NCBI GenBank assembly: GCA_938044705.1
Contig: CALIOL010000134.1
Span: forward strand, 1 to 36,318
Source of the DNA: an uncultured Ilumatobacter sp.
GTDB lineage: Bacteria > Actinomycetota > Acidimicrobiia > Acidimicrobiales > Ilumatobacteraceae
Direction: 5' to 3'
Length of the DNA: 36,318 bases
Position numbers and translations under genes: made by a program. The notes under the pieces are model-generated. The model had not been told where the DNA came from and made no database searches. It was given only the letters and a program-made list of their open reading frames with translations. This document shows, in pieces, positions 1-30,758 of the stretch (the first letter of the stretch is position 1; each line of letters begins with the position of its first letter).

Positions 1-2
1 GC

Positions 3-522: not shown

Positions 523-530
523 TGTCCTTC

Positions 531-654: not shown

Positions 655-660
655 TACGAT
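655..660 (+). promoter_or_regulatory. Candidate leaderless -10 hexamer TACGAT
   Basis: TACGAT (TANNNT) is followed by 7 bases and the ATG at 668. A transcription start about 7 bases after the hexamer would coincide with that ATG, giving a leaderless mRNA. The in-frame ATG at 659 lies inside the hexamer, which argues against it as the start. Confidence 0.5.
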
Positions 661-667
661 GCAACCA

Positions 668-1456: not shown

Positions 1457-1476
1457 GCGGACACGAGTCCGTCGCC

Positions 1477-1824: not shown

Positions 1825-1838
1825 ATGTCGCGAACGAT

Positions 1839-2582
1839 CTATCGACCGCCCGAGCAGTCGAGCGTCGTCGCAGTCACATACGAAGCCGCGTCAGATGCGA
1901 GCCAGAGAATCGCCTCGGCGACCTCGCCAGGTTCTCCTGGTCGCCCGATGGGTACCCCTGCACCAACGCGCTCAGCGCGGCCCGGTTCACCACCGCTGGC
2001 ATGGATGTCGGTCCGCACGACGCCCGGGCGGACCGCGTTGACGCGGACGCCCTCGCCGGCGAGCTCACGGCCGAGTCCGATGGTCATCGTGTCGATCGCC
2101 GCCTTGCTCGCTGCGTAGTCGACGTACTCTTGCGGGCTTCCGAGGTACGCGGCCGTCGACGACACGTTGACGATTGAGCCGCCGGCTCCTCCGTGAGCTG
2201 TCGACATCCGACGGGCGGCTTCGCGGGCGCAGAGGAACGCACCGATCACGTTGACGTCGAACACCGACCGCCAACGGTCGACGGACATCTCGTCGAATCG
2301 CATCTGCTGATGCAAGATCCCCGCGTTGTTGACGAGCACCCGGAGGTTGCCGAGCGCCTCGGCGGCAGCGAACATCTCCCTCACCGATTCCTCATCCGAC
2401 ACATCGCCTCGAAACGCCGCGGCGTCAACGCACAGCGACCGACACCGGTCGACGACAGCGGCAGCCGCGTCGGCGTCCGAGGTGTAACCGACGAGGACCG
2501 AGTAGCCGGCGTCGGCAGCCGCCACACACGTCGCTGCACCGATGCCTCGGCTTCCGCCGGTGACCAGGATCGTGTCGCTCAT
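1839..2582 (-). CDS. SDR-family oxidoreductase (FabG-like), 247 aa
   Basis: A second classical SDR, unrelated in detail to the one at 668. TGGSRGIGAAT forms the cofactor loop at about residues 8-18, followed by VNNAG, the catalytic Ser in NVSSTAAY, and YAASK (YxxxK). It ends with the conserved region DCSGGR, as in 3-oxoacyl-ACP reductase-like enzymes (LDVDGG in FabG). ATG 2582 is preferred to ATG 2612, because the Rossmann fold starts immediately after it and the extra ten residues are Cys/His/Arg-rich and unlike the family. A CACGCT hexamer 6 bases upstream could be a variant leaderless -10. It diverges from the gene at 2642. The substrate is unknown. Confidence 0.9.
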   Translation of the reverse strand: MSDTILVTGGSRGIGAATCVAAADAGYSVLVGYTSDADAAAAVVDRCRSLCVDAAAFRGDVSDEESVREMFAAAEALGNLRVLVNNAGILHQQMRFDEMSVDRWRSVFDVNVIGAFLCAREAARRMSTAHGGAGGSIVNVSSTAAYLGSPQEYVDYAASKAAIDTMTIGLGRELAGEGVRVNAVRPGVVRTDIHASGGEPGRAERVGAGVPIGRPGEPGEVAEAILWLASDAASYVTATTLDCSGGR

Positions 2583-2641
2583 CCCTCGAGCGTGACACAG
2601 CCGCGCCGACAAGTCGCCCGAGAAATGGCATCATCGGACCC

Positions 2642-3802: not shown

Positions 3803-3819
3803 GTCGGAGCGAGTGGGAC

Positions 3820-4683
3820 CTACTCGGCGATCCACGCCTGGATGATCTTGCCGGCGATGCTGATCGTCGGTGGCACCATCGGGAGGTCGTCTTTTCGGTA
3901 CCAGTTCGCATCGAGGATCTCACCCTCTTCGCACACGATGTCGCCATCGACATAGTTGGCCCGGAACCCGACCATGAGGCTGTGCGGGAACGGCCACGGC
4001 TGACTCCCCACGTAACGCACGTCATCGACGTCCACGCCGACCTCTTCTTTGACCTCCCGAATCACCGCTCCTTCGAGGTCCTCGCCCGGCTCCACGAACC
4101 CAGCGAGGCAGGAGTACATCGGCATCGGGAAGTTGACGCCACGGGCCAGCAGCGCCTCCTGATCCGGACCTGGCTCACCGCGAGTCACCAGCGTGATCAT
4201 CGCAGGAGCGACGCGGGGATATGAGATGAGCCCGCAGTCCGGGCACTTCATGCCGCGCTCGCCTGCCGACGGTTCCATCGCCGCTGCACACCGACCGCAG
4301 AATCGGTGGGTGCGTGCCCAGCCAATGGTTTGCACGGCTCGGCCGGCCAGCAGCCATTCGGCCTCTGTCCCGATCGCGAAGTACCCGTACAGATCGACCG
4401 ATGCGCCGTACGACGGGTCGTCGCCGTCGGGCACATCGACAGCCCACCACCCTTCGCCGTCCAGCACACCGATGAAGTGCGCCGGCCACGCTTCGTCTTC
4501 GTTGCGGTCGTCGACGAAGACCTTCGTGCCGATGACGTGGACGAATCGTCGTGGCCCGTCGAATCCGTCCGGAACGTCGTTGAGCGCGTCGTAGAGGGAG
4601 GCGGTGTTCATCGACACCAGAGCGAGGTCGGATTCCTGAGTCATCGACGCCATCTGTAGCACGCCGCCCCGGCGCGACCTCAT
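3820..4683 (-). CDS. nudC: NAD(+) diphosphatase NudC (Nudix hydrolase), 287 aa
   Basis: This is a NudC-type Nudix enzyme, which hydrolyses NAD(H) to NMN(H) and AMP and in E. coli removes NAD caps from RNA. A four-Cys zinc ribbon (C129, C132, C147, C150) precedes the Nudix box [20 protein letters not shown] (G195 to about V217). The NudC-specific SQPWPFP signature follows at 227-233. The N-terminal domain typical of the family is present. The start is uncertain: ATG 4683 gives 287 residues, but ATG 4653 or 4644 would also be in frame and the conserved N-terminal domain seems to begin after them. It diverges from the nitrobindin gene, whose start is only 11 bases away if ATG 4683 is used. Confidence 0.92.
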
Positions 4684-4688
4684 ACGCT
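4683..4688 (+). promoter_or_regulatory. Candidate leaderless -10 hexamer TACGCT
   Basis: TACGCT is followed by 6 bases and the ATG at 4695, and no Shine-Dalgarno sequence is present between them. It overlaps the first codon of nudC if ATG 4683 is used, which favours a later nudC start. Confidence 0.5.
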
Positions 4689-4694
4689 CGGATC

Positions 4695-5216
4695 ATGAAC
4701 GCAGGCCCCGCACTCCACCCAACGGTTCAGATCCTGGCACCGCTGCTCGGCACCTGGCAGGGAACGGGAGCGGGTGAGTACCCGACGATCGACGGATTCG
4801 AGTACGACGAGACGATCACGTTCGGCCATGTCGGCAAGCCGTTCCTCGCGTATCAGCAACGAACGACGGCGAGCGATGACGGGCGCCCGCTCCACGCTGA
4901 GTCCGGATACTGGCGCATCCCATCCGACGGTCTGGCCGAGATCATGCTCGCGCACCCCACCGGCATCACCGAGGTCCTCGAGGGGTTTGCGGCGCCGAAC
5001 AGTCCCGGAGCGACCGACACGGTGATCGTGGACGTGCGGTCGGCATCACTGGGTCGCTCGACGTCGGCCAAGGAAGTGACCCGCACCGAGCGCACGTTCG
5101 AAGTCACCGGTGACGTGCTCCGCTACACCGTGCGGATGGCAGCAGTGGGACAACCGCTGCAACACCACCTCAGCGCGACACTCCGCCGCGCTGGCGCTGC
5201 TGCGACGCCGGCCTGA
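4695..5216 (+). CDS. Nitrobindin-type FABP-family heme-binding protein (peroxynitrite isomerase family), 173 aa
   Basis: The N-terminus carries the family signature [16 protein letters not shown] at about residues 15-31, followed by FEYDETITF and AESGYWR. These are hallmarks of the ten-stranded beta-barrel nitrobindins of actinobacteria and eukaryotes (DUF1794/THAP4-like). Characterised members bind ferric heme and isomerise peroxynitrite to nitrate. A C-terminal His is needed as heme ligand; HHLSATLRR near residues 157-165 is the likely region. The length is typical. There is no signal peptide, so the protein should be cytosolic. The stop lies 3 bases from the end of the convergent M1 peptidase gene. 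Start ATG 4695 fits the TACGCT hexamer. Confidence 0.88.
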
Positions 5217-5219
5217 CGG

Positions 5220-6830
5220 TCAGCGCAGCGGAACGCCGTCGAGTTCCGCTGGGAGCTCGCTGGTGCGCAGCCACTCGTCGAAGAACGAGTCGAGATCTTC
5301 ACCGGAGAATTCCTCGGCCAGTGCCTGAAAGTCATCCGTGGTGGCATTGCCGCCTCCGAACCGTTCGTTCCAGGTTCGCAGCATGTCGAAGAACACCTCG
5401 TCACCGAAGCGGACTCGCAGGGCATGCAGCGTGAACGCTCCGCGCAGATACACCTGAGCTCCGAACAACTGCTGCGGACCGGGGTCGTGAACGTGTCGTT
5501 CGAGCGCCGGGCCGGCGAACAGCAACCGTCGGATCCACTCCTCGTAAGTGAACTCCGGGTCGGATGCTTCGGCCCAGAGGGCTTCGCCGTAGGTCGCGAA
5601 GCCCTCGTTCAACCAGATGTCCTCCCACCGCTCGACCGACACGTTGTTGCCGAACCACTGATGAGCGAGTTCGTGAGCGACGATTGCCTCGGCGTCGCCG
5701 AATCCGAGGACGTCCGCACCGAAGATCGACAACGTCTGCGTCTCCAGCGCACCTCCGAACGAATCTGCGACGACCACGGAGCCGTACACGTCGAACGGAT
5801 ACGGCCCGAACAGTTCCTCGAAGATGTCGATCATCTCCGGCTGCGCATCGAAGATCGGCTCGACGCGTTCGGCCAACCCCGTGTCGAACACGTTGCGCAC
5901 GGGCACGCCGCTCGTACTCGGCTCGTCCTCGACCACGGTGAAGTCTCCGATCACCAGCGTCGTGAGGTACGTCGCCTGTGGATCGGATTGCTCGAAGCTC
6001 CAGGTCGTTCGGTCACCGTTCACCTGGACGTCTTGCAGCGTGCCGCTCGCCGCCACCGTCAGCTCGGATGGCGCCGTGATCCGGTAGCTGAATACGGCCT
6101 TGTCACTCGGATGATCGTTGACCGGGTGGAACGTCGTGGCCGACAGCGGCTCCCCGACGACGTAGACGAACCCGTCGCGGGTGTGCCAACCGGACGGCTG
6201 TCCGACATTGCCTGCGTCGAACGCGTTGTCCACTGGAGTTCCTGAGTACCGAACGACCGCGACGAACCTTCCACCCTCGGCGATCGGTTCGGAAGGCGTG
6301 ATCTCGATTTCGTCATCAGCGCGAACGAAGGCTGCGTCGACCCCGTCGATGCTGATCGCATCGATGTCGAAGCCCGTCAGCTCGAGGTTGAACGACGACA
6401 ACGCCTGCGTCGCAGTGGCCTCGATCTGTGTGATCCCGGTCAGGACTTCGGTCTCGGGTTCCCAGTCGAGGTCGAGCAGGTACGCCGTCACGTCATACCC
6501 CCCGTTACCGAAATCACCGACGTAGGGGTCGTCGAGCGTCGAAGCGCCTGCGGTCGCCGCCTCGGCAGGCTCGGAATCCTCCGAGGCTTCCTCCGACACG
6601 TCGTCCTCGGGCTGCTCCGTCGTGGCCGGCGAGGTCTCGGTCGACTCGGCGTCCTCGGTGTCCCCAGCTTCATCGTTCTCGTCTGCGGTGTGTTCACGGT
6701 CCAGCGGAACCGTCGGGGTGTCACCAACGATCGGATCCGACTCCACACCGATCGCGTCGCGGCCGCCGTTTGCAGTGCACGCCGCAGCGATCACGACGGC
6801 GACGATCAGAGAACAGACGGTCTTGAACAT
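5220..6830 (-). CDS. M1-family zinc metallopeptidase, probable lipoprotein, 536 aa
   Basis: This is a gluzincin aminopeptidase-like protein. HELAH is at residues 386-390 and the third zinc ligand Glu at 409 in NEGFATYGE, matching HExxHx18E of family M1. The exopeptidase substrate motif before it reads GGALETQTLS, so the usual GAMEN is replaced by GALET. The N-terminus MFKTVCSLIVAVVIAAAC is a signal peptide ending at Cys18, a plausible but non-canonical lipobox (AAAC). Residues about 30-95 are a very acidic Asp/Glu/Thr linker. The protein is shorter than full aminopeptidase N and lacks the long C-terminal helical domain, as in other short secreted M1 members. ATG 6830 is chosen over 6851 because the signal peptide starts there. 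Confidence 0.9.
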   Translation of the reverse strand: MFKTVCSLIVAVVIAAACTANGGRDAIGVESDPIVGDTPTVPLDREHTADENDEAGDTEDAESTETSPATTEQPEDDVSEEASEDSEPAEAATAGASTLDDPYVGDFGNGGYDVTAYLLDLDWEPETEVLTGITQIEATATQALSSFNLELTGFDIDAISIDGVDAAFVRADDEIEITPSEPIAEGGRFVAVVRYSGTPVDNAFDAGNVGQPSGWHTRDGFVYVVGEPLSATTFHPVNDHPSDKAVFSYRITAPSELTVAASGTLQDVQVNGDRTTWSFEQSDPQATYLTTLVIGDFTVVEDEPSTSGVPVRNVFDTGLAERVEPIFDAQPEMIDIFEELFGPYPFDVYGSVVVADSFGGALETQTLSIFGADVLGFGDAEAIVAHELAHQWFGNNVSVERWEDIWLNEGFATYGEALWAEASDPEFTYEEWIRRLLFAGPALERHVHDPGPQQLFGAQVYLRGAFTLHALRVRFGDEVFFDMLRTWNERFGGGNATTDDFQALAEEFSGEDLDSFFDEWLRTSELPAELDGVPLR

Positions 6831-15471: not shown

Positions 15472-17172
15472 ATGGCTCTGCGTCAGACGCACATCGACCG
15501 CATCCGCGACGGAAGCTTCGACACCCTGATCATCGGCGGCGGGATCAACGGCGCGGTGACCGCAGCTTCGCTCGCTGGTCGTGGCGCCAGCGTCGCGCTC
15601 GTGGATCGCGGTGACTTCGGACACTTCACCAGTCAGGCGTCGTCCAATCTCGTGTGGGGCGGCTTCAAGTACCTCGAGAACTACGAGCTGTGGCTCGTGT
15701 TCAAGCTGTGCCAGTCGCGCAACCGACTGATGCGCTCGTACCGAGCGAACATCAAGGAGATCGGCTTCTACGCAGCTCTCCAGGACAAGCCATACAAACC
15801 GTGGTTCGCCGCACTCGGAGCGTTCGGGTATTGGCTCATCGGTCAGTTCGGCACCAAACCGCCTCGCTACCTCTCCACCGAAACGATCGAGAAGGAAGAA
15901 CCGGCCATCACGACCGACACCGTCGCAGGCGGCATCGAGTATCGAGACGGGATCCTGATCGACAACGATGCGCGTTTCGTGTTCAGTTTCGTGCGCTCGG
16001 CAATCGAAGCCGGAGCCGCGGCTGCGAACTACGTCGAGCTGGTTTCGGCCGAACGAGATGGCGATCGCTGGGTCGCCCAACTCCGCGACGTCGACACCGG
16101 CGAGGAGTTCAAGACCTCGGCCCGCACCATCGTCAACGCCGCGGGCCCGTTCGTCGACGAGACGAACCGCGGCTGGGGCCTCGAGACCGACCATCGCATC
16201 GTCTACTCGAAGGGCATCCATCTCGTCGTTCCGCGACTGACGACCAAGCGGCACAACAAGGTGCTTGCGTTCTACGACGATGACGAGCGCCTGTTCTACG
16301 TGATTCCGATGGGTGCCCGCTCGGTGATCGGCACCACCGACACTCGAGTCGACTCTCCGTTCACGGAGGTCACCGACGACGACATCGAGTTCTTGCTGGC
16401 GCAGATCAACGCCCGGATGGATCTCGACTCACCGCTCACCCGCGACGACATCATCGCCGACCGCTGCGGCGTGCGGCCGTTGGTCGTCAAGACGGACGGC
16501 GGCGACCAGCAGGACGTCGACTGGACCAAGCTGTCCCGCAAGCACGCTGTGGAGACCGACCACCGGCAACGAGTCGTCACGATCTTCGGCGGAAAGCTCA
16601 CCGACTGTCTGAACGTCGGCGAGGAGGTCGCCGCGGAGATCGAGGAACTCGGCGTGCCACTCGAACGCGACCTGCACAACTGGTACGGCGAGCCGGCGAA
16701 GGCGACGAAGAAGGAGTTCTTCCGCCAGGCCCGGTTGATGAAGCTCGACCGGCTTCGCCCGAAGCCCGATCTCGAACCATTGTCCGACCGGCTGTGGCGG
16801 CGCTACGGCCGGCGAGCGTTCGCCATGCTCGACGCGATTCGCGAAGAGCCAGCGATGGCCGAAGACATCATGGGCTCGGCCGACTACATCCGGATCGAGC
16901 TGCACGAGGCCGCACGATCTGAGATGGTCACGAAGCTCGAGGACTTCATGCGCCGACGTTCAAAGATCGAGTTGGTGGTCCGCGACGCGGACATCAATGC
17001 GTCGGCCGGGCTCCGAGAGGTCGCAGAGATCCTGTTCGGCGACGCCGATGCCGACCGACGACTCGCCGAGTACTTCGGCGGCGAGGACCGCGTGCCCGAA
17101 GCCGTCAAGGCCGGTCCACCGCCGACCGAAGCAACGAAGTCGGCCGGCGACACGCTCGTCTCACCTCGCTGA
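15472..17172 (+). CDS. glpD: Glycerol-3-phosphate dehydrogenase/oxidase, 566 aa
   Basis: An FAD-dependent GlpD/GlpO-like enzyme. The dinucleotide-binding motif GGGING is at residues 22-27, followed by VALVDRGDFGHFTSQASSNLVWGGFKYLE, the family signature around the FAD. A DAO-type domain continues to about residue 385 (VIPMGARSVIGTTDT, TIFGGKLTDCL). A C-terminal helical domain of the GlpD family covers about 420-540. It would oxidise sn-glycerol-3-phosphate to dihydroxyacetone phosphate at the membrane and pass electrons to quinone. It has no glpF or glpK neighbour here. The last 25 residues are a low-complexity tail. The gene starts 49 bases after the rhomboid stop behind its own TAGCCT hexamer. 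Confidence 0.9.
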   Translation: MALRQTHIDRIRDGSFDTLIIGGGINGAVTAASLAGRGASVALVDRGDFGHFTSQASSNLVWGGFKYLENYELWLVFKLCQSRNRLMRSYRANIKEIGFYAALQDKPYKPWFAALGAFGYWLIGQFGTKPPRYLSTETIEKEEPAITTDTVAGGIEYRDGILIDNDARFVFSFVRSAIEAGAAAANYVELVSAERDGDRWVAQLRDVDTGEEFKTSARTIVNAAGPFVDETNRGWGLETDHRIVYSKGIHLVVPRLTTKRHNKVLAFYDDDERLFYVIPMGARSVIGTTDTRVDSPFTEVTDDDIEFLLAQINARMDLDSPLTRDDIIADRCGVRPLVVKTDGGDQQDVDWTKLSRKHAVETDHRQRVVTIFGGKLTDCLNVGEEVAAEIEELGVPLERDLHNWYGEPAKATKKEFFRQARLMKLDRLRPKPDLEPLSDRLWRRYGRRAFAMLDAIREEPAMAEDIMGSADYIRIELHEAARSEMVTKLEDFMRRRSKIELVVRDADINASAGLREVAEILFGDADADRRLAEYFGGEDRVPEAVKAGPPPTEATKSAGDTLVSPR

Positions 17173-17180
17173 ACGACGAC

Positions 17181-17942
17181 ATGCTCGGTCTGCTTCGTCG
17201 CTGGTTCACACGCCCAACCCCTGAGTTCGACCCCGCGTGGGAACCCATGCTGCTCGAGAAGTACGCGCATTGGTCCACCCTCGAGGGTGGCGAGCTCGAG
17301 CGAATGAAGATGTTGACGGCGAGGTTCATCGCCGACAACGACTGGGAGGCCGCCCAGGGCATGGAGATCACGACCGACGTCCAAGTCTTGGTTGCGGCGC
17401 AGGCCGCGATGTTGTTGCTCGGACTCGAGATCGACGAGTACTTCGACGTGACGTCGATCATCATGCACAAGTCGACGGTGCGCCTCCGTGGCGTTCGCCG
17501 CGGTGCGGCTGGCACCATGCGTGATGGGGTCCAGCACCTCGCCGGTCAGGCGACGCCGAAAGGACCGGTCGTGCTGTCGTGGGCTGCAGTCAAGCGTGGG
17601 GCGTCGCGCTCGGGAGGCGGAGACAACGTCGTGTATCACGAGTTCGCTCACCGTCTCGACATGTTGGACGGATTCACCGACGGCACGCCACCCCTCGGCA
17701 GCGAGGAAGCCGCCGCTCGTTGGGCGCAGGTGTGCACCCCGGCATACGAGCGTGTCCAGGCGGGCGACTCGGTGCTCCGGGGCTACGCCGCCACGAACAT
17801 CGCCGAGTTCTTTGCCGTCGCTACCGAGGCGTTCTTCAATCGGCCAGAGGTTCTCGCTGAGCACGAACGAGACCTCTACGACGAGCTTCGGCGCTTCTTC
17901 GGCCAGGACCCAGCCCGCCGAATCCAGTCGTCACCAACGTGA
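17181..17942 (+). CDS. mtfA: MtfA-like zinc-dependent peptidase, 253 aa
   Basis: The product has HEFAH at residues 153-157 in VVYHEFAHRLDMLDG and a downstream NIAEFFAVATEAFF segment that supplies the third zinc ligand, as in MtfA (YeeI/DUF980). In E. coli MtfA binds the repressor Mlc and so affects glucose PTS expression, and it has aminopeptidase activity; whether that applies here is unknown. The length is typical. The N-terminus, MLGLLRRWFTRPTPEFDPAWEPML, is basic and amphipathic. The gene starts 8 bases after the glpD stop, so it is likely co-transcribed with it. A sigma-28-like promoter follows the gene at 17965. Confidence 0.88.
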   Translation: MLGLLRRWFTRPTPEFDPAWEPMLLEKYAHWSTLEGGELERMKMLTARFIADNDWEAAQGMEITTDVQVLVAAQAAMLLLGLEIDEYFDVTSIIMHKSTVRLRGVRRGAAGTMRDGVQHLAGQATPKGPVVLSWAAVKRGASRSGGGDNVVYHEFAHRLDMLDGFTDGTPPLGSEEAAARWAQVCTPAYERVQAGDSVLRGYAATNIAEFFAVATEAFFNRPEVLAEHERDLYDELRRFFGQDPARRIQSSPT

Positions 17943-21093: not shown

Positions 21094-21717
21094 ATGCAAG
21101 AAGTCCTGTCCGCCTCCCTCGAGCTCCCGACGATTGTCTTCACCGTCCTGCTGGCCATTTCGGGCTGCATGTGGCTGCTGTCGCTCGTCGGAGCGATCGA
21201 CGTCGAGGTCGACGCCGCTGACGGACTCCTCGACGACGCGCTCGAGCCGATGAACCTGTCGGAGGTTCCCGCCACCGTGCTCCTCACGGTATTTGCCCTC
21301 GGCGGCTGGTTCGTCTCGGTTCTGGCCAGCGTCTTCCTCCTCGACGGTCGGAGCGGAACGGCACTCGTCATCACCTCGGTGGCGATCGGGGTCGGTGCCG
21401 CGATCGCAGCGATCGGATTCGTGATGTGGGTCTCACCGCGTCTCGCGCTCGTGTTCGTCACGACGACCGCTCCGTCAAAGCGTGAGCTCCTCGGTCGGAT
21501 TGCCGAGGTGCGTTCGGCAACGGTGACGGAATCGACGGGTCGCGGCGAAGCCACCTGGCCCGACGGCACCGTCTCGACCGTCGACCTGCGGACCACTGCC
21601 GGCACCGGCGTAGCCGCCGGCGAGCTGAAGCGGGGCGACTTCGCCCTGATCGTCGATTGGGACGAAAAGGCCGACGACTTCTTCGTCGATCGAGTACCAG
21701 CTGAGCTGATCGATTGA
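21094..21717 (+). CDS. YqiJ-like OB-fold membrane protein (flotillin partner), 207 aa
   Basis: Three hydrophobic helices lie at about residues 10-30, 56-78 and 84-107. A cytosolic C-terminal domain (about 130-205) of NfeD/OB-fold type follows, ending GDFALIVDWDEKADDFFVDRVP. The arrangement and size match E. coli YqiJ (DUF1449), whose gene always accompanies the flotillin YqiK, and the next gene here is a YqiK-type flotillin. NfeD-like OB domains are thought to interact with the SPFH partner in the membrane. ATG 21094 is chosen over TTG 21076 because the latter has only poor support. The family assignment leans partly on the neighbour. Confidence 0.8.
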   Translation: MQEVLSASLELPTIVFTVLLAISGCMWLLSLVGAIDVEVDAADGLLDDALEPMNLSEVPATVLLTVFALGGWFVSVLASVFLLDGRSGTALVITSVAIGVGAAIAAIGFVMWVSPRLALVFVTTTAPSKRELLGRIAEVRSATVTESTGRGEATWPDGTVSTVDLRTTAGTGVAAGELKRGDFALIVDWDEKADDFFVDRVPAELID

Positions 21718-21731
21718 CCCGATCAGTGGGC

Positions 21732-21747
21732 CGGGGACACATCCCCG
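21732..21747 (+). promoter_or_regulatory. Intercistronic hairpin after the YqiJ-like gene
   Basis: CGGGGA-CACA-TCCCCG is a perfect 6-bp stem with a 4-base loop, 14 bases after the stop of the YqiJ-like gene. There is no T-run. It could be a weak terminator or a stability element that sets different expression levels for the two products. Confidence 0.4.
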
Positions 21748-21814
21748 TACATCGCGCGCACCGTTTCGGCCATGATGTCTCGAACAGCACGGCCAACCAC
21801 CGATTTCACCACCC

Positions 21815-21857
21815 GATGATCGTCGACCGCCTCCACCAGGCAGCGGCAACGATCATC
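21815..21857 (+). promoter_or_regulatory. Inverted repeat upstream of the flotillin gene
   Basis: GATGATCGT (21815-21823) and ACGATCATC (21849-21857) form a perfect 9-bp inverted repeat with a 25-base middle, which itself contains GCC/GGC. It ends 27 bases before the flotillin ATG. It could be an operator or an mRNA hairpin near the ribosome-binding region. Confidence 0.4.
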
Positions 21858-21878
21858 CATTCAAGAAAGAGCCAGTGA
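21816..21878 (+). CDS. Possible 20-residue leader peptide upstream of flotillin
   Basis: ATG 21816 opens a frame of 20 residues (MIVDRLHQAAATIIHSRKSQ) ending with TGA 6 bases before the flotillin ATG. It overlaps the inverted repeat. The flotillin gene has no convincing Shine-Dalgarno, so coupling to this small frame is possible. Chance occurrence is equally plausible. Confidence 0.2.
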   Translation: MIVDRLHQAAATIIHSRKSQ

Positions 21879-21884
21879 TTCAAC

Positions 21885-23909
21885 ATGGGAAGTGTCCTCG
21901 CAGCGGCCGGCATCGTCGTCGTCGTCGTGGTCATCGTCATCCTCCTCGTCGCCCTGATGGTGTCGAGACTGTTCCGCAAGGTCCCGCAGGGCCAGGCACT
22001 GGTGGTGTCAAAGTGGCGATCGGTCGTGGTCACCTTCACCGGCCAGATCGTGATTCCCGTGGTCCACAAGGCCGAGATCATGGACATCTCGGTGAAGAAC
22101 ATCCAGATCGAACGTCGCGGCAAGGGCAACGGATTGATCTGCAAAGACAACATCCGTGCCGACATCTCGATCGAATTCTTCGTCAAGGTCGATCCGACCG
22201 AGCAGGCCGTCAAGAAGGTGGCTCAGGCGATCGGCTGTGAGCGCGCCTCTGACATCGCCACGCTGAACACGCTGTTCGCAGCCAAATTCTCCGAGGCGCT
22301 CAAGACCGTCGGCAAGAAGTTCGAGTTCGAATCGCTCTACACCGACCGCGATTCGTTCCGCGACGAGATCGTCGAGATCATCGGCAAGGACCTGAACGGT
22401 TACGTCCTCGAAGACGTCGCCATCGACTACCTGGAGCAAACCCCGCTGGCCGACTTCGATCCGGACAACATCCTCGACGCCGACGGCATTCGCAAGATCA
22501 CCGAGCGGACCGCCGTCCAGCACATCGAAACCAACAAGGCCGAGCAACTCGAGCGCGAAGAGACCACGCGTCGCACCGTCGACGCCGACAAGGCCGTGTT
22601 CGAGATGGAGCGCGACCGCGCCGAGGCAGAGGCTCGCCAGCAGCAAGAGATCCGCACGGTCCAGGCCCAGGCCGACGCCGAGGCTAAGCAGATCGAAGAG
22701 GCCGAGCGCAAGAAGGCCGAAGAAGCCCGCCTCGCCACCGAGCAAGGCATCGGCGTTGCCGGCGAGAACAAGGACCGCGAAGTTGCGATTGCCGGATTGA
22801 ACCGCGAGCGCGTCGTCCAGGTCGAAGCGGAGAACATCGAGCGCGACCGCCTGCTCGCAGTGACCGGTCGTGAGACCGCCGTGGCCGAAGCCAACAAGGA
22901 GAAAGAAGAGCGTGCTCGCGAGCTCGCCGATGTCGCCCGCGGACGTGTCGAAGCCGACCTGGGTGTCGCAGAGAAGGAAGAAGCCATCGCGACGCTGCGC
23001 GTTGTTGAAGAGGCCCAGCGCTCGGCTGACGCCGAGATCAAGACCGCCGAAGGAACGGCTCAGGCACTGTTCGTCGGCACCGTCAAGGAGGCCGAGGCCG
23101 CACGTCAGGCCGCAAGCTCCGAAGCAGAACGAGCGACGATTCTCGCTCGCGCCAACGCCGATGCTGCCCAGCAGGACTCACTCGCGGCTCAACGCCGTGC
23201 CGAAGGCGCAAAGGCCGAAGCTGCCGCGAGCGGTCTGGCCGAGGTGCAGGTCGAGCGCGAGCGTGCCGATGCCATCCGAGCACTCGGTCTGGCCGAGGTC
23301 GAGGTCAAGCAGGCCGACGCTGTCGCCGTCCAAGAACTCGGTGCCGCCGAGGGTGCCGCAACCAAGTCCAAGCTCTCAGGTGAAGGCGAAGGTCTCGAGG
23401 CCAAGGCCCAAGGTGTTGGTGCAATGACCGCTGCCGGCCAAGAGCACGAGGAGTTCCGCCTCCGTCTCGAGACGGACAAGGAAGTCGCGCTCGCCGGCGT
23501 CAACGCCAAGGCCGACGTGGCCAAGTCCGCTGCGTCCGCGCTGGGCGAGGCGATGTCGAACGCCGACATGAAGATTGTGTCCGACGAAGGCATCGTCGAG
23601 CGGATCCTCTCGGCGGCTGGTCACGGTCAGGCGATCGACGGGTTCATCAACAGCAGCGACGGCGCACAGCGCTTGCTCAAGCCGTACCTCGATGGCGACT
23701 CCAACCTGGTCCAAGATGTCGCAGCTGGCGTCGGCGGAGTCGGCGCAACCGGCATCCGCGACCTCACCATTGCCGAGTTCGTTGCCCGACTGGGTGGCCG
23801 CATCGGCGACGCCGATGGCGGCTCGGCGCTCATCGAGCAGCTCAAGTCGGCGGTCGAATCGAGCGGAGTCGCCGGTCAGTCCGTCGGCGACGTCATCGAC
23901 GTCGACTGA
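21885..23909 (+). CDS. YqiK-type flotillin (SPFH/band 7 protein), 674 aa
   Basis: An N-terminal membrane helix (about 6-26) is followed by VPQGQALVVSKW and an SPFH/band-7 domain (about 30-210). A long Ala/Glu/Lys-rich coiled coil (about 210-520), with many EA- and AEA-type repeats as in eukaryotic flotillins, comes next. The C-terminal region (about 540-674) turns Gly/Ala-rich and ends SVGDVIDVD. Flotillins oligomerise into membrane scaffolds and organise lipid domains. At 674 residues it is longer than E. coli YqiK. It sits between a YqiJ-like gene and, 8 bases downstream, a giant AAA+ protein, so it probably anchors or organises that protein at the membrane. That last point is inference. 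Confidence 0.92.
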   Translation: MGSVLAAAGIVVVVVVIVILLVALMVSRLFRKVPQGQALVVSKWRSVVVTFTGQIVIPVVHKAEIMDISVKNIQIERRGKGNGLICKDNIRADISIEFFVKVDPTEQAVKKVAQAIGCERASDIATLNTLFAAKFSEALKTVGKKFEFESLYTDRDSFRDEIVEIIGKDLNGYVLEDVAIDYLEQTPLADFDPDNILDADGIRKITERTAVQHIETNKAEQLEREETTRRTVDADKAVFEMERDRAEAEARQQQEIRTVQAQADAEAKQIEEAERKKAEEARLATEQGIGVAGENKDREVAIAGLNRERVVQVEAENIERDRLLAVTGRETAVAEANKEKEERARELADVARGRVEADLGVAEKEEAIATLRVVEEAQRSADAEIKTAEGTAQALFVGTVKEAEAARQAASSEAERATILARANADAAQQDSLAAQRRAEGAKAEAAASGLAEVQVERERADAIRALGLAEVEVKQADAVAVQELGAAEGAATKSKLSGEGEGLEAKAQGVGAMTAAGQEHEEFRLRLETDKEVALAGVNAKADVAKSAASALGEAMSNADMKIVSDEGIVERILSAAGHGQAIDGFINSSDGAQRLLKPYLDGDSNLVQDVAAGVGGVGATGIRDLTIAEFVARLGGRIGDADGGSALIEQLKSAVESSGVAGQSVGDVIDVD

Positions 23910-23917
23910 ACCACGGC

Positions 23918-26900
23918 GTGACCGACACCTCCACCACCGACGAAGCAGCCGGCGAGCAGACGCTGCGCGGCGGGTCCTATGACCTGCTGCGCCGTCGGCT
24001 CGGCGGCCAGGCCGGCGAACTCGAACAGATCGCCCAACGCATCGACGCAGCACGCGTCGAAGCGTTCGGGTCGGTCGGTGTTGCGCTGACCGGCGCAGAC
24101 CGACTCGCCACCGACCTCGCGTGTCTGCCGCGCGACATCGCCCGGATTGGCAACCTCCTCCTGCTCGGGTTCAACATCGATGTGGACTTGAGTATCCAGC
24201 AGCCCGAGCAGGTTTTCGCGCTGTACGAGGCCCGCGACGTCTCGTCCGACCAACCGACACTCTCCCCGCTCGCCAGCGACGATCCGCGATACTTCCTCGC
24301 CGACGCCGACTTCCGATCCGAGTTCGACAAGCTGGTCCGCTTCTTCGGCAAGAGCCGATTCGTCGACCTGCGCACGACGCAGAACCAACTGTTGGCCGTG
24401 TTCCAGGTCGGCGACCGAGTCGACGACGTCCGCGTGTTTCGTTGGACGCTCAGCGGCGACGGGGCCGAGCGCACTGCAACGTTCGTCGACGCTCGCGGCG
24501 ACCGCGATTACGACTGGCCCGCGGCCCACGATCAGGACTGGACGACAGCGAGCCGCGAAGATCAGCGAGCCGGCGCGCACCCCGTGGTCTCGATCAACGA
24601 CGAGGTCTTCGTCGGCTTCCGCAACGGGCGGCTGCAGCTTCGCGTCGAGACCGGCGAAGGTGGCTCACACGCGGAGATCGACGAGCCCGTAGCGAATATC
24701 GGCCAGTCGCTCGCCGACATCGCCGTTGATCACCTCACCGTCGGTGACATCCTGCTCATTCGCGTCAACCTGTACGAAGAGGCACCTCGCACGTACGTGT
24801 TCTCGCGGCGCAGCCGCTCTGGTCAGCGAGTCGACGCTGCGGGCGTCGCGTCTCGCCTCCTTCCAGGCGGCGAAGGAATCGTGTTCCCCGGTGGATTCCA
24901 TCTCACGTCGACGGGCACCCGCGTGTTCGACGTCGACGTCGAGGACCTCCAATTCGAAGAACTCATCGCCGCGCCCAATGGCGAGGACGTGCTGTACGTC
25001 TTTCATCGGCGTACCAACGGCGAGTACCTCTTGATGCCGTACAACCTGGTCAAGCGGCAAGTGGCGCAGGTCATCACGGCCCACGGGTTCGCCACGTTCG
25101 CTGACGGGTCGATGATCCTGTTCCGGGACCAAGCGACCGACGCTGATCCTGCGAAGATTCACCCGATCCAGTGGTGGAAGACGCCGTACGCCGACACCGA
25201 CCACGTTCCCGACGCCGGCGACGACAACCCGTGGATGCAGCGAGTTGGCAACGCGGCGCTGGTCGCCGGGCTCGGCGACGTCTATGACGTGGTACGGCTG
25301 AGCCGCGACGAGCAGCCGACCGCAAGATCCTGGGAGGGTCTGGCGTCGGCGACGCGCCGCTCGATGGATCAGCACCTCTGGTTCGTCGACGACGAAGCCG
25401 AGGGACTCCATTCCGCCGCCACCGAGGTCCTCACGACCGCCGGACAGTTGCTGGACGAGCACAAGTTGGTCGAGCGCAAGCGGTCCGCTGCACGCGCCAC
25501 GTTGGCAACGGCTGAGACTTCGGTGCGCCAAGTCCTGAACGGCATTTCGACCGCATCCACACCCGACCAGGTGGTCGGTGCACTCGGCCAGCTCCGCCGT
25601 GCACGCGGTGAGATGTCGGTCGTGGCCGACACCGACTCGATCGACACCGCCCGCGTCGAAGAACTCATCGGCGAGCTCGATGAAGGCGTGGCCGAACTGT
25701 CCGAACGTGCGGTTGACGTTCTGTCGCGTCCAGGAGCGTTCGGCTCGCTGGAATCCGAGATCGCATCCGCCGAAGCGGCCGTCGCTGATTCGACGACGTC
25801 GGCACAGCTCGACGAGACCGGGGAGCGCCTCGAAGCGATCAGCAACGACCTCGATGCCGTCGTCGACACGGTGTCGGCACTCGAAGGCGGAGACCCGACG
25901 GTGCGAACCGCGATCGTTCGAAGCGTTTCGGACGTCACTGGTGCCGCCAACCGGGTCAAAGCACAGCTCGATTCGAAACGTCGAAACCTGGGCGCAGTCG
26001 AGGCCGCAGCAGCGTTCGACGCCGAGCTCGCGCTGGTCGAGCAGACCCTCAACGGCTCCGTGGCCGGCGCCACCACTCCCGACGAGTGTGACGCGGTCCT
26101 CGCCCGTCTGCTCGTCACGATCGAGCGACTCGAATCCCGTTACGGAGACGACCCCGACGCCAGCGCATCGATCGCCGAGGTGCGGTCGACCGCTCACGAA
26201 GTCGTAGGCGAACGGCGCACTGCCCTGCTCGACGAGCGAAACCGCCGCGCGACACGAATCGTCGATGCAGCCACGCGCCTGCTCGACACCGTGACCCGTC
26301 GGGCGAGCGAGTTCTCCGACGACAAGGAGATCGCTGCATTCTTCGCGACCGACCAGCTCACGTCTCGAGTGCGTGAACTGGCCGACGAACTCGAGTCACT
26401 GGACGATGCAGGCCGCGCGGCGGAGGTGCGCAGCGGACTGCGTGACGCAGCCGAGGAAGCGCGCCGACGGATCCGAGACAAAGCGGCCCTCGTGTCCGAC
26501 GACGGCGCCGTGGTCTTGGGCGGCGTCCGTCTCGCTCAGAACAACCAACCGTTCGAGATGGTGCTGTCGGCCCGCCAAGGCGAGCGTGGCGACGACTCGA
26601 TCGCTGCGACGATCACCGGCACCGACTTCGCCATCGACGTCAGCGACGAGCTCGACGGATTCGCCGACCTCCTCGGTCGATCGTTCCCATCAGAAACACG
26701 CGATGTGTCACGCAGCGAATACCTCGCATGGGCCGTGCTCGAATCGATGACCGCCCAGCCAGGCGGGCTGGCCGAACTCCTGACCGCTACCGCAAACCCG
26801 GCAAAGATGAATGAGCTGTGTCAGGCCGAGGCCGAACGCCGTCACGGTGACGGCTACCAGCGCGGCGTCCACGACCAGGACGCGGCCAGGATCCTCACCG

Positions 26901-28867
26901 CCGTGATGCCTGCCCTGGAGGCCGAACCACTGCTGCGCTTCACCGGAACCGTTCGGGGCCTCGCCCGTCTGTGGCTCTCGCAGATGGACCCAGAGGCTGT
27001 CGCTGCCTGGGTCGCCAAGTCGACGGCGGCCGAGACTGCGGTACAACGTCTCGCCGCAACGGGCCCGGCCGAACGTCTGGCGGAGGAAGCACGCCACGAG
27101 ATCGACCAGTTCGTCACTGCATCCACCGCGCCGGAATCGCACCGTGCGGTGTTCGGAACGATCCAGATCGAACGCGCCGCCGACTACATCGTCGACGAAC
27201 TCGCGACCGGCGCAGAAGTCATCACATCGTCAACCGCCACTGCGCTCGTGGCAGAACTGCAGAACGACCTCGGCAAGGACGGCGTCGCCGAACTCGAGAT
27301 CGCGCTCGCGTCGGAAGCCGATGCCGTCGAGCGATTCGTGCTCGCACAGGACTGGGTCGCAGCGTTCGTGGCCGCAGACGACTCACGCGCCGACCGCGGC
27401 TTCGACGTCGCCGAGGCCGCCGCGATACTGGCGACCCCGGACCTGGCGACGCGAGTGGCAAACCAGGGCGGCGCGATCACGGTCACAGGGCTCGTCGCCG
27501 ATCACCCACGAATCAGCGACGGCGTGCTGGTCACTCGAACCGACGAACTCGCCGAGGGCGCCGGCGCACTCTTCGCCGAGATGCAGCGGCGGTGGCCCAG
27601 GTACTCCGATGCGCGACGCAAGGTGGTCGAACGGCAGAGCGAGCGAGTCAAGCTGGACGAGCATCGTCCATCGGTGATGGCCGGCTTCGTGCGCAACACG
27701 CTGATCGATACCGCACTGCTCCCGCTGTTCGGGCCGAACCTGGGTCGGCAACTGGGCACGGTCGACCCATCCGACGTTGCTCGCCAGGGCCTGCTCGTCG
27801 TCGTGTCTCCGCCGGGCTACGGCAAGACCACGTTGATGGAGTGGATCGCGGACCGATTGGGACTCTTGATCGTGAAGGTCAATGGGCCAGCGCTCGGCCA
27901 CGACACGACCAGCCTCGACCCGGCGGATGCGCCGAACGCTGCAGCGCGAGCCGAAGTCGAGAAGATCAATCTGGCGTTCCAGATGGGGCGCAACGTGATG
28001 CTCTATCTCGACGACATTCAACACACGTCGCCGGTGTTGCTGTCTCGATTCATCCCACTCGCCGACGCAACACGCCGAATCGAGGGTGTTGCAAACGGTG
28101 AGCCGACGACCTTCGATCTCCGCGGCAAGCGCTTTTGTGTCGTGATGGCGGGTAACCCGTACACGACCGGCGGCGGCCGCTTCGAGATGCCCGACATGCT
28201 CGTCAACCGCTCCGACGTGTTCAACCTCGGCGATGTGTCCGGCGAGCACGGCGATGCGTTCGCACGGTCGTACATCGAGAACTCCCTGACTGCGTGTCCG
28301 ACCGTTGCGCCACACGCATCGAAGCTGCTCGACGATCTCGGCTCGGTGCTGCAGATGGCATCCGGTTCGAAACCGGTCGAGACCAGCGGATTGGAACACA
28401 ACTGGGACGGTGCCGAACTGGATGCGACCGTCCGTGCGGTTGCCATGCTCAGCCGGGCTCAAGACGTACTCCTCAAGGTCAACGCCTCCTACATCGCGTC
28501 GGCTGCCACGTCCGAGGAAGATCGGGTTGCGCCTCCATTCCTCCTGCAGGGGTCGTACCGCAACATGGCGCGTATCGCAAGCCGCGTGGTGCCCGTGATG
28601 ACCGAGGACGAACTCGATGTCGTCGTCGACGATCACTACAACTCCGAGGCACAGACCCTGACCGACAAGGCCGAACAGAACCTGCTGGCCTACAAGTCGC
28701 TCTCCGGTCGCATGACGGAGGTCGAAGCCGCTCGTTGGCAAGAGATCCTCGATCGCGCATCGGCGCGCGCCGCAGCCGCCGACGGTGTCGGTCGCGTCGT
28801 CGGCGCTCTCGACCGGCTGACCGGCGCGGTCCTCCACGACCCCGACGACCCCGGCCCCCACGACTGA
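23918..28867 (+). CDS. Giant coiled-coil AAA+ protein ('DNA repair ATPase', DUF3686-type), 1649 aa
   Basis: The N-terminal 60 residues (GGSYDLLRRRLGGQAGELEQIAQ, then VEAFG) match a family that databases label DNA repair ATPase; to my knowledge it has no experimental function. Residues about 60-480 form a repetitive all-beta region, perhaps a propeller (DUF3686, from memory). About 490-860 is long helical/coiled-coil sequence. A mixed domain covers about 865-1250. The AAA+ module at about 1265-1500 has Walker A PPGYGKTT (K1303, T1304), Walker B LYLDD (D1365-D1366, Asp replacing the usual Glu), a sensor-1 Asn in VVMAGNPYTTGG and an Arg in LVNRSDVFNLGD. There is no membrane segment. GTG 23918 lies 8 bases after the flotillin stop, so the two are one unit. 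Confidence 0.85.
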   Translation: MTDTSTTDEAAGEQTLRGGSYDLLRRRLGGQAGELEQIAQRIDAARVEAFGSVGVALTGADRLATDLACLPRDIARIGNLLLLGFNIDVDLSIQQPEQVFALYEARDVSSDQPTLSPLASDDPRYFLADADFRSEFDKLVRFFGKSRFVDLRTTQNQLLAVFQVGDRVDDVRVFRWTLSGDGAERTATFVDARGDRDYDWPAAHDQDWTTASREDQRAGAHPVVSINDEVFVGFRNGRLQLRVETGEGGSHAEIDEPVANIGQSLADIAVDHLTVGDILLIRVNLYEEAPRTYVFSRRSRSGQRVDAAGVASRLLPGGEGIVFPGGFHLTSTGTRVFDVDVEDLQFEELIAAPNGEDVLYVFHRRTNGEYLLMPYNLVKRQVAQVITAHGFATFADGSMILFRDQATDADPAKIHPIQWWKTPYADTDHVPDAGDDNPWMQRVGNAALVAGLGDVYDVVRLSRDEQPTARSWEGLASATRRSMDQHLWFVDDEAEGLHSAATEVLTTAGQLLDEHKLVERKRSAARATLATAETSVRQVLNGISTASTPDQVVGALGQLRRARGEMSVVADTDSIDTARVEELIGELDEGVAELSERAVDVLSRPGAFGSLESEIASAEAAVADSTTSAQLDETGERLEAISNDLDAVVDTVSALEGGDPTVRTAIVRSVSDVTGAANRVKAQLDSKRRNLGAVEAAAAFDAELALVEQTLNGSVAGATTPDECDAVLARLLVTIERLESRYGDDPDASASIAEVRSTAHEVVGERRTALLDERNRRATRIVDAATRLLDTVTRRASEFSDDKEIAAFFATDQLTSRVRELADELESLDDAGRAAEVRSGLRDAAEEARRRIRDKAALVSDDGAVVLGGVRLAQNNQPFEMVLSARQGERGDDSIAATITGTDFAIDVSDELDGFADLLGRSFPSETRDVSRSEYLAWAVLESMTAQPGGLAELLTATANPAKMNELCQAEAERRHGDGYQRGVHDQDAARILTAVMPALEAEPLLRFTGTVRGLARLWLSQMDPEAVAAWVAKSTAAETAVQRLAATGPAERLAEEARHEIDQFVTASTAPESHRAVFGTIQIERAADYIVDELATGAEVITSSTATALVAELQNDLGKDGVAELEIALASEADAVERFVLAQDWVAAFVAADDSRADRGFDVAEAAAILATPDLATRVANQGGAITVTGLVADHPRISDGVLVTRTDELAEGAGALFAEMQRRWPRYSDARRKVVERQSERVKLDEHRPSVMAGFVRNTLIDTALLPLFGPNLGRQLGTVDPSDVARQGLLVVVSPPGYGKTTLMEWIADRLGLLIVKVNGPALGHDTTSLDPADAPNAAARAEVEKINLAFQMGRNVMLYLDDIQHTSPVLLSRFIPLADATRRIEGVANGEPTTFDLRGKRFCVVMAGNPYTTGGGRFEMPDMLVNRSDVFNLGDVSGEHGDAFARSYIENSLTACPTVAPHASKLLDDLGSVLQMASGSKPVETSGLEHNWDGAELDATVRAVAMLSRAQDVLLKVNASYIASAATSEEDRVAPPFLLQGSYRNMARIASRVVPVMTEDELDVVVDDHYNSEAQTLTDKAEQNLLAYKSLSGRMTEVEAARWQEILDRASARAAAADGVGRVVGALDRLTGAVLHDPDDPGPHD

Positions 28868-29165: not shown

Positions 29166-29519
29166 ATGAAGTACGGACTGCTCCTTTACGACGACCCCGC
29201 CAACGCCAACGACTTCGGCACGCCCGAGATGGATGCCGAGATGCAACAGTGGTTTGCTTTCACCGAGGAACTCACGAACGCCGGCAAGAACCTCGGCGGA
29301 GAAGCTTTGAATCCCGTCGAGACCGCCACGACCGTTCGGGTTCGCGACGGTAAAACCGTCACCGTCGACGGGCCATTCGCCGAGACGAAGGAGACGCTGG
29401 GCGGGTTCTACATCATCGAGGCCGAGAACCTCGACGAAGCCATCGCCTGGGCGGCGAAGATCCCCAGCGCGCCAACCGGATCGGTCGAGATCCGACCGAT
29501 CATGGAATTCGACGGCTGA
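29166..29519 (+). CDS. YciI-like (DGPF domain) protein, 117 aa
   Basis: The protein starts MKYGLLLYDDPANA and contains VDGPFAETKETLGGFYIIEAENLDEAIAWA, the DGPF signature after which the domain was named. Its fold is a ferredoxin-like dimer. Such proteins are the standard partners of ECF42 (and related) sigma factors, encoded next to them, but their role in signalling is unresolved. ATG 29166 follows an AGGAA Shine-Dalgarno at 5 bases, one of the few clear ones in the window. The sigma factor gene starts 9 bases after its stop. A longer open frame upstream is not coding: it runs through the palindromic element. Confidence 0.92.
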   Translation: MKYGLLLYDDPANANDFGTPEMDAEMQQWFAFTEELTNAGKNLGGEALNPVETATTVRVRDGKTVTVDGPFAETKETLGGFYIIEAENLDEAIAWAAKIPSAPTGSVEIRPIMEFDG

Positions 29520-29528
29520 TTCCACGGC

Positions 29529-30758
29529 ATGCCGGCTCGGATCTCTCCGGTCGACCACGCCTTCCGAACGGAATGGGCGCCCCTGGTCGCCACGCTTCTC
29601 CGTGAGACTCGAAGCCTGCAACTCGCCGAAGACGTGGTGTCCGAGGCGTTCGTGGAGGCGTCGGTCCGGTGGCGGACCGACGGAGCTCCACGACGCCCGG
29701 GCGCCTGGTTGCTGACCACCGCACGGCGCAAAGCAGTCGACCAGATCCGCCGACAACAGCGCTTCGACGAACGCCTCCCCGTGCTGGCTGCCGACCTCGA
29801 CGATCCACCGGATGAACGAGCGCATCACCTCGTCGATGATCAGCTTGCGTTGATCGCCGGCTGTGCTCACCCTGCGCTTGACGCCGAAGCCCAGGTCGCC
29901 CTCACGCTGCGATACGTGTGTGGCCTCTCGACCGAACAGATCGCCCACTCCTTCATGGTTCCGACCGAGACGATGAAGAAGCGGCTGACGCGCGCAAAGT
30001 CGAAGGTCGATGCGGCTGGGGTCCCGTTCACCGTTCCCGATCACGAACGCCTTCCCGATCGCCTGACTGCGGTATGCGGCGTGATCTACGCCGTGTTCAA
30101 CGAGGGCTATACCAGTTCGGTCGGCCCCGAGCTGGTGCGTGGTTCGCTCTGCGACGAAGCAATCTGGCTGTCTGAACTCCTGTGCGAGCTGGCACCTGAT
30201 GATGGCGAAGTCCACGGGCTCGCCGGACTCATACTGCTGACCGATTCGCGGCGGTACTCGCGTACCGACGCCAACGGGCTCCCCGTGCTGCTCGAGGACC
30301 AGGACCGAACCGACTGGGACACCGGGAAGATCGAGCGCGGCCTGCGGCACCTCGCTCGTAGCGCCTCGTCCAGTGGTATCGGGCCGTACCGACTGATGGG
30401 CTCGATCGCTGGCCTTCACGCTCGGTCGACTTCGGTCGAAACCACGCCATGGGCCCGCATCGCTGGGCTGTACGGAGCACTCATCGCGCTCCACGACTCC
30501 CCCGTACTCAGACTCAACCAAGCAGCTGCCCTCGCCTGGAGCGAAGGGCCGGCAACGGGTCTCGCGCTGATCGACGAACTCGCGCACGAGCTCGACGACT
30601 ACTCGTACTTCCACTCGTCGCGGGCTGCCCTGCTGGCCAAGCTCGATCGAACCGATGATGCGGTTGCCGCATACGAGCGTGCCATCGCGCTCACGAGCAA
30701 CGAGGCGGAGATCCGGTGGATGACGCTCAGACACTCCTCCATCGCCGGGGAAGCCTGA
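29529..30758 (+). CDS. ECF42-type RNA polymerase sigma factor with C-terminal extension, 409 aa
   Basis: Sigma region 2 is at about residues 8-80 (AEDVVSEAFVEASVRWRTDG, PGAWLLTTARRKAVDQIRRQQR) and region 4 at about 110-165 (LTLRYVCGLSTEQIAHSFMVPTETMKKRLTRAK). A 240-residue C-terminal domain follows, beginning RLTAVCGVIYAVFNEGYTS, with TPR-like helices at the end (AVAAYERAIALTSNEAEIRW). This long extension and the YciI neighbour define the ECF42 group. No anti-sigma factor is present, consistent with ECF42, where the extension is thought to control activity. Targets typically include its own YciI gene. The ATG at 29529 has no evident Shine-Dalgarno and is probably coupled. Confidence 0.93.
   Translation: MPARISPVDHAFRTEWAPLVATLLRETRSLQLAEDVVSEAFVEASVRWRTDGAPRRPGAWLLTTARRKAVDQIRRQQRFDERLPVLAADLDDPPDERAHHLVDDQLALIAGCAHPALDAEAQVALTLRYVCGLSTEQIAHSFMVPTETMKKRLTRAKSKVDAAGVPFTVPDHERLPDRLTAVCGVIYAVFNEGYTSSVGPELVRGSLCDEAIWLSELLCELAPDDGEVHGLAGLILLTDSRRYSRTDANGLPVLLEDQDRTDWDTGKIERGLRHLARSASSSGIGPYRLMGSIAGLHARSTSVETTPWARIAGLYGALIALHDSPVLRLNQAAALAWSEGPATGLALIDELAHELDDYSYFHSSRAALLAKLDRTDDAVAAYERAIALTSNEAEIRWMTLRHSSIAGEA

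Follow-up and report, generated by a model that had tools for sequence, protein, structure and literature searches.

What does a giant AAA+ protein, whose relatives are annotated as a "DNA repair ATPase", do directly beside a flotillin gene? The question is raised by a 36,318-nucleotide stretch of DNA (hereafter the window) from an uncultured Ilumatobacter sp., taken from contig CALIOL010000134.1 (C134) of assembly GCA_938044705.1, part of a 3.88-Mb draft genome that is 81.85% complete. The two named relatives found are Ilumatobacter metagenome assemblies, in which the best segment of the ATPase is 87% and 72% identical. A sequence-only reading of the window had described three same-strand genes for a YqiJ-like membrane protein, a 674-residue flotillin and, after an 8-base gap, a 1649-residue AAA+ protein, and the open reading frames and Pfam matches confirmed this layout. 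In the samples taken, the pairing of flotillin and ATPase is close to obligate, which fits the single machine proposed in that reading; the docking of the ATPase on the flotillin is what we infer. With a probability of about 0.55, we consider the pair to be an obligate SPFH-scaffold/AAA+ machine for membrane remodelling or quality control in envelope stress.

The constancy of the neighbourhood carries this reading. We compared 44 further loci with a match to DUF3686, the largest family match of the ATPase, comprising 11 of the 12 plasmid records that encode it (the one left unread for neighbours is a second Proteus record with the same score), 14 loci from phylum and family searches, and 19 from a Streptomyces-like genus; together they span Actinomycetota, Pseudomonadota, Deinococcota and Bacteroidota. 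The flotillin gene lies directly upstream of the ATPase gene, on the same strand, in 43 of the 44 loci. The remaining locus (L057) starts at a contig end, at the ATPase start, and the flotillin of that genome is on another contig. Thus, the opposite pattern, an ATPase mostly without flotillin neighbours, which the sequence-only reading had named as the case against itself, was clearly not what the tally gave. Relatives of the YqiJ-like protein, detected with a hidden Markov model, precede the flotillin in 38 of the 44 loci; none was detected in L008, L028, L032, L067 and L069, nor in L057, where the contig leaves no room. No fourth universal neighbour gene was found among these loci. The neighbour-count profiles were built from the first 25 loci and the window, and only the 19 genus loci, taken as every fourth previously unfetched row of the DUF3686 listing for the genus, are independent of them. 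Two loci (L038 and L065) are cut by contig ends, and genome G473, whose two contigs are cut inside genes, was excluded from the count. Genes with split frames, which suggest decay or assembly errors, were scored as present. They are the flotillin genes of L029 and L030, the two copies in genome G182, and the ATPase genes of L025 and L054, one being a copy in G128 and the other the gene of G593. Across the 39 loci with long frames, the window's included, the two genes are always on the same strand, and their spacing ranges from overlaps, which may stem from taking the first start codon, to a gap of 263 bases.

The two genes also occur together at the level of genomes. DUF3686 was found in 9 of the 396 genomes of a phylum sample, and flotillin at E 1e-20 in the same 9. 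In the Streptomyces-like genus of G128, DUF3686 exceeded the cut-off in 81 of 150 genomes and flotillin reached E 1e-20 in the same 81 (the two lists were matched by eye; Fisher p about 1e-42), with genome G682 carrying only a sub-cut-off DUF3686 fragment. In the family of the window, 7 of 200 genomes had DUF3686 and 8 had a strong flotillin match (243 bits or more), namely the same 7 and G506, whose contig (L072) breaks off 30 bases past the flotillin. At E 0.001, 13 of these 200 genomes had a flotillin match of any strength, and the five weak ones (101 bits or less) came without DUF3686. The phylum, genus and family samples overlap in part. A search of 72,556 plasmid records found the ATPase in 12 and the flotillin in 36; the latter are the same 12, with 161–270 bits, and 24 more that do not exceed 107 bits. 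Of the 12 records, several are as large as chromosomes and 9 are typed as non-mobilizable. DUF3686 was absent from 14 control genomes, E. coli among them, and a DNA-level search of 20,395 E. coli records with bases 1–3909 of the Proteus ATPase gene found no match.

A distribution as patchy as this, from 7 of 200 genomes in the family to 81 of 150 in one genus, and the presence on large plasmids would also suit anti-phage defence, in which the module would sense membrane injury at infection and the ATPase would act on phage components or trigger arrest. Very large AAA+ proteins occur in defence. Helicase and DNA methyltransferase genes lie upstream of the module in pQBR103, and PA3728–PA3732 are among 17 genes upregulated in all phage-infected Pseudomonas aeruginosa samples (PMC12041424; this and all other papers are cited from excerpts of their text). 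However, such induction also fits an ordinary Psp-type envelope response. The PADLOC 2023 models gave only weak P-loop matches (best relevant E 0.003) and placed the protein in none of their known families, and no recurrent defence genes were seen on reading the loci, whose neighbours were taken without a PADLOC scan. Additionally, 50,697 phage records contained no homologue, and two peptide patterns run against IMG/VR gave 57 matching stretches without a relative among them; thus, the module does not look phage-carried. Phage defence, which the sequence-only reading had kept among its possibilities, lacks direct support for this module, and we regard it as rather improbable.

The flotillins that travel with the ATPase differ from those that do not. 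In a tree of the SPFH region, 17 ATPase-linked and 7 ATPase-less flotillins are split by one branch with a support of 100/100, and the identity over this region is 38–95% within the linked group and 24–35% between the groups. One of the seven ATPase-less rows is E. coli YqiK; the other 6 come from the 24 plasmid records without the ATPase, an absence that refers to the plasmid record only and not to the chromosomes; two rows, Thioclava and Yoonia, are long branches, and wider sampling could break the clade. On the sequences compared, the ATPase-linked flotillins are a dedicated clade apart from E. coli YqiK. A grouping of the window flotillin with YqiK was considered and rejected, with YqiK falling outside the 100/100 clade that holds all 17 linked flotillins. 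The label "YqiK-type" given by the sequence-only reading did not survive: it is too loose because the tree separates linked from ATPase-less flotillins, and the window flotillin, to which YqiK is 27% identical over 460 aligned columns, is better called a sister kind. Three of the ATPase-less flotillins (Vitreoscilla, Rhizobium and Bosea) stand in triads of PspA, an OB-fold/YqiJ protein and flotillin. The Yoonia locus (L075, 4992–8381) encodes an unusually long flotillin-domain protein of 1129 residues, with no ATPase or YqiJ annotated beside it. The window flotillin itself barely exceeds the Pfam cut-off for Band_7 (26.5 against 23.6 bits), has one N-terminal hydrophobic segment by hydropathy and a long Ala/Glu-rich region, and found no match at 0.01 in a search of solved structures.

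Flotillin and ATPase have diverged together, as their distance matrices correlate with r = 0.956 over 39 loci (2000 permutations gave at most 0.45) and r = 0.85 within 25 Streptomyces-type loci; both matrices share one history, and r is an upper bound for co-adaptation that shared descent explains in part. The coupling could be functional rather than physical, with the two proteins as co-regulated parts of one stress response that act apart. Operon structure and co-inheritance cannot separate contact from co-function, and YqiK-type flotillins occur without the ATPase. Nevertheless, the dedicated clade and the correlation within one genus set fit contact better, with the reservation that shared descent also raises r, and we hold action without contact to be unlikely.

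The third protein of the module is a frequent rather than universal companion. The sequence-only reading had called it a three-helix OB-fold protein. Three hydrophobic segments were indeed found with a simple hydropathy window, beginning at about residues 9, 64 and 93 of a 213-residue reading frame that opens upstream of the ATG at TTG 21076, and a C-terminal domain is present besides them; the OB fold was not borne out, as the window protein has no Pfam domain above the cut-off and no NfeD match of its own. NfeD is matched weakly by 2 of 16 relatives (best E 0.0024), and in hhalign the profile of the family matches E. coli YqiJ with a probability of 93.9 and E 1.6e-7. A search of solved structures with this protein gave no relevant match.

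The window ATPase scores 426.9 bits against DUF3686, 73.5 bits against DUF7902 and 23.5 bits against AAA in Pfam, and the long frames and the scores of the first two families are far above chance. All three families are present in 19 of 19 members of an alignment of the window protein with 18 relatives that are 32–85% identical to it. Conservation is highest at residues 1251–1450, where the mean majority fraction is 0.75–0.79, compared with 0.35–0.64 in the preceding blocks. The Walker A motif SPPGYGKT (residues 1297–1304) is found in all 19 proteins, and D1365, D1366, N1413 and R1431 do not vary among them. These key residues were read from the alignment; text strings for Walker B and the sensor differ by one residue in a few rows. 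With motif roles assigned as is usual for AAA+ proteins, the core is intact by its residues, with Walker A, an acidic Walker B pair, a sensor-type Asn and a conserved Arg. The conserved P-D-M-L-x-N-R-x-D stretch after the sensor Asn may resemble MoxR-type proteins; the AAA, AAA_5 and AAA_22 models each match weakly in all 19 members and single out no AAA+ sub-class. No protease family match was obtained in Pfam, and no hydrophobic segment was seen by hydropathy; therefore, a membrane location would need a partner. A coiled coil is plausible by eye, and the DUF3686 region is probably the part described in print as beta-propeller repeats. AlphaFold models of the N-terminal 540 residues (strand-rich, with a pLDDT confidence score of 38.7) and the C-terminal 720 residues (pLDDT 52.6) were built on shallow alignments of 2 and 3 sequences, and we draw no claim about the fold from them. 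Searched against solved structures, the ATPase matched P-loops and, weakly, a few coiled coils (best E 0.0018).

These features bear on the annotated function, in which the protein is a DNA repair ATPase and the flotillin merely tethers a DNA or nucleoid complex to the membrane. The Pfam and RefSeq names say so, RuvB_N is matched weakly by 14 of the 19 members, and an SMC-like model weakly matches residues 581–701 (E 0.0004; 19 bits against a cut-off of 300). However, the RuvB similarity is limited to the P-loop, the protein's constant companion is a membrane scaffold, repair genes do not recur next to the loci, and the literature searched offers no experimental basis for the name. In the open-licence literature, no paper was found with "DUF3686", nor any with "DNA repair ATPase" and "flotillin" together. 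We consider a role in DNA repair highly improbable, and the name appears misleading: the protein travels with one flotillin clade in every sample, bar one sub-cut-off fragment.

Gene context in relatives points to membrane and ion stress rather than DNA. In pQBR103 and Hymenobacter, a YjfI or Tir-like protein and PspA precede YqiJ and flotillin, which is the full form of the module, and the pQBR103 locus also has DUF2491, DUF350, DUF1190 and glutathionylspermidine synthase genes. In Vibrio (L044, 13831–15609), a PLD-domain gene and then TelA follow directly after the ATPase, and TelA is also downstream of it in Photobacterium (L043, 14580–15662), which suggests a link of the module to toxic-anion genes. 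In Proteus, the upstream side has LemA and TPM genes in divergent orientation. A PucR-type regulator of one family is found near 21 of 30 Streptomyces-type loci, mostly in divergent orientation (for example, L027 5151–6209 and L053 530–1588), and is a candidate regulator of the module; since PucR regulators are abundant in streptomycetes, this link stands without a background control. A TrkA_N channel-like gene lies near 10 of the same 30 loci, one of them a short fragment of 75.7 bits, and three full-length TrkA_N proteins read as RCK, two transmembrane segments and RCK (Pfam and hydropathy). Neither the PucR nor the TrkA_N gene was found outside the Streptomyces-type set, of which two named plasmids are members.

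The TrkA_N genes raise ion or osmotic homeostasis as an explanation, in which scaffold and motor would assemble or regulate K+ channels and transporters. In five loci (L031 at 4533–6575, L063, L064, L066 and L068), the gene follows the ATPase in the same orientation at a distance of 31–61 bases. The plasmid copies L008 and L004 have NhaA or Trk/antiporter genes at their flanks, and BacB of P. aeruginosa rises with osmotic shock (PMC2587700). However, no channel-like gene was found in the other 20 of the 30 loci, in the window, or in the loci of other phyla, and this count is a lower bound, as many loci were read only about 1 kb downstream. We judge a role in ion or osmotic homeostasis to be improbable.

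The obligate scaffold–motor machine is our preferred reading. What we observe is the near-obligate pairing, the co-divergence, the separate flotillin clade, the intact AAA+ core and the frequent but not universal YqiJ. By analogy with SPFH cages (PMC11260169), the flotillin, aided by the YqiJ/NfeD-like protein, would oligomerise into a scaffold on the cytoplasmic side of the inner membrane. As its dedicated motor, held at the scaffold by the long N-terminal region, the DUF3686 AAA+ protein would spend ATP on dismantling or refolding a client associated with the membrane when the envelope is stressed. The most attractive client would be a PspA/ESCRT-III-like polymer, because PspA is part of the full operon as published and of two loci among those read here. 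As a tentative and doubtful extension, DUF3686 proteins could be the motors of a second SPFH-cage/AAA+ class that is protease-free and independent of HflKC-FtsH, a bacterial counterpart of Vps4 in function that sits on a dedicated flotillin cage and dismantles PspA-type membrane polymers.

Several points weigh against this machine. The physical contact, the cage form, the client and the stress role are all parts that we infer. The only PspA gene seen in the genome lies elsewhere, on contig C295, with none beside the window genes, and the window neighbours scanned include no CesT/Tir-PspA dyad. Queries with PspA and CesT of the pQBR103 and Hymenobacter loci matched neither the other loci nor the window in a single-sequence test that is insensitive, and PspA is thus an exception among the loci read. 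A Foldseek search with the C-terminal ATPase model returned 638 weak matches, none at E 0.001 or better, and most of the 50 matches shown are AAA+ proteins. Published phenotypes are also mild: deletion of E. coli yqiK causes no defect in the excerpts of PMC10434171, P. aeruginosa SPFH mutants, including that of the likely relative paFlo3, have slight phenotypes only (PMC13086221), with paFlo3 deletion lowering biofilm by about 20%, and an insertion mutant of pa3728 grew normally where it was used as a control (PMC12599236).

Within the window (Table 1), only the flotillin and ATPase genes are tightly coupled, as 167 bases separate the YqiJ-like gene from the flotillin; the tight coupling that the sequence-only reading ascribed to the module holds for the second gap and not for the first. 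Promoter and terminator scans gave no signals above shuffles, and the operon structure therefore rests on spacing and conservation.

Table 1. Features of the flotillin–ATPase module and their positions in the window
Feature	Positions	Strand	Basis and remarks
YqiJ/NfeD-like membrane protein, 207 residues	21094..21717	+	ATG start; open reading frame list, hydropathy, family alignment, profile match to E. coli YqiJ
SPFH (Band_7) flotillin, 674 residues	21885..23909	+	Open reading frame list, Pfam, tree
Giant ATPase, 1649 residues, relatives annotated "DNA repair ATPase"	23918..28867	+	GTG start; open reading frame list, Pfam
DUF3686 region, ATPase residues 34–486	24017..25375	+	Pfam
DUF7902 region, ATPase residues 607–690	25736..25987	+	Pfam; 19/19 aligned members
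AAA+ core, ATPase residues about 1257–1589	27686..28684	+	Alignment; most conserved part of the ATPase

The window neighbours scanned look unrelated to the module, with a GGDEF-EAL protein upstream and a YCII protein and an ECF sigma factor downstream. Two GGDEF-EAL proteins are encoded on the contig (12588–14378 and 17999–20977); the second has HAMP and PAS domains and ends 116 bases before the YqiJ-like gene, and a GGDEF gene also precedes the module on two Deinococcus plasmids. A DAO-type oxidase gene and an M90 peptidase gene (15472–17942) lie upstream of the module, and both are also near it in three relatives of the same genus (L034, L037 and L072). Downstream, a YCII-domain protein is followed by an ECF sigma factor with DUF6596 (29178–30758), which is a common pairing.

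The arrangement of the three genes is already in print. Ravi et al. 2024 (PMC11237479) described operons of CesT/Tir, PspA, band-7 flotillin, AAA+ and YqiJ, including an AAA+ protein of this architecture, predicted the module to assemble membrane complexes under envelope stress, and also reported abbreviated operons without PspA. The window genes have the traits of that module: an SPFH protein with an N-terminal transmembrane segment and a long C-terminal helical region (the helical tail judged by eye), a YqiJ/YuaF-like protein with three transmembrane segments (from the hydrophobic segments and the profile match to E. coli YqiJ), and, in the same operon, an AAA+ ATPase with a large N-terminal extension. 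The window is the abbreviated form without CesT-PspA, and the match to the "novel AAA+" of PMC11237479 rests on architecture and context, DUF3686 not being named in its excerpts. The ATPase is present there "in some cases", whereas here it is near-constant once the flotillin belongs to the ATPase-linked clade. Conserved NfeD-SPFH operons, including yqiJ-yqiK, were described by Hinderhofer et al. 2009 (PMC2636767), and an ESCRT survey noted the link of SPFH proteins to PspA/ESCRT-III (PMC10936438). The strictness of the pairing and the split of the flotillin clade are what is added here. Compared with E. coli YqiJ-YqiK, the window shares the order of a membrane protein and then an SPFH flotillin; in contrast, YqiK has 553 residues, lies outside the linked clade, and has no DUF3686 ATPase annotated beside its gene.

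In P. aeruginosa, gene order suggests that BacE is PA3728 and that PA3728 may be a DUF3686 protein. The bac operon (PA3732–PA3727) is probably the same module as that of the window. It encodes a DUF2170/CesT-like BacA, a PspA-like BacB, an NfeD-like BacC, the SPFH protein BacD/PaFlo3 and two more proteins, is co-transcribed as six genes (PMC10948618), and differs from the window in having the CesT-PspA pair; PA3728 is listed as an ATPase (PMC8190622). The view that no experimental function is known for the ATPase family thus largely stands, with the qualification that P. aeruginosa experiments on the bac operon probably concern this module. PaFlo proteins are said in PMC13086221 to be without a conserved genomic context, which disagrees with the present view if PaFlo3 is in the clade. 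In Bacillus subtilis PspA-YdjGHI, an SPFH protein likewise brings PspA to the membrane; the SPFH protein is a different one, likened by description, and no giant ATPase is named in the excerpts of PMC8581546.

The pairing turns a protein of no known function into a tractable two-protein problem and sets the motor-bearing flotillins apart from the motor-less YqiK kind. FtsH is a membrane-anchored protease, and the window ATPase differs from it in having neither a hydrophobic segment nor a protease family match. The likeness lies in the architecture, as HflK-HflC is an SPFH oligomer that works with an AAA+ enzyme at the inner membrane, and SPFH cages that hold AAA+ proteases, HflKC with FtsH, are known (PMC11260169). 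If contact between flotillin and ATPase is shown, the module would join HflKC-FtsH as a second pairing of an SPFH scaffold and an AAA+ engine, and could contribute to an explanation of why the loss of one SPFH gene looks silent in standard assays.

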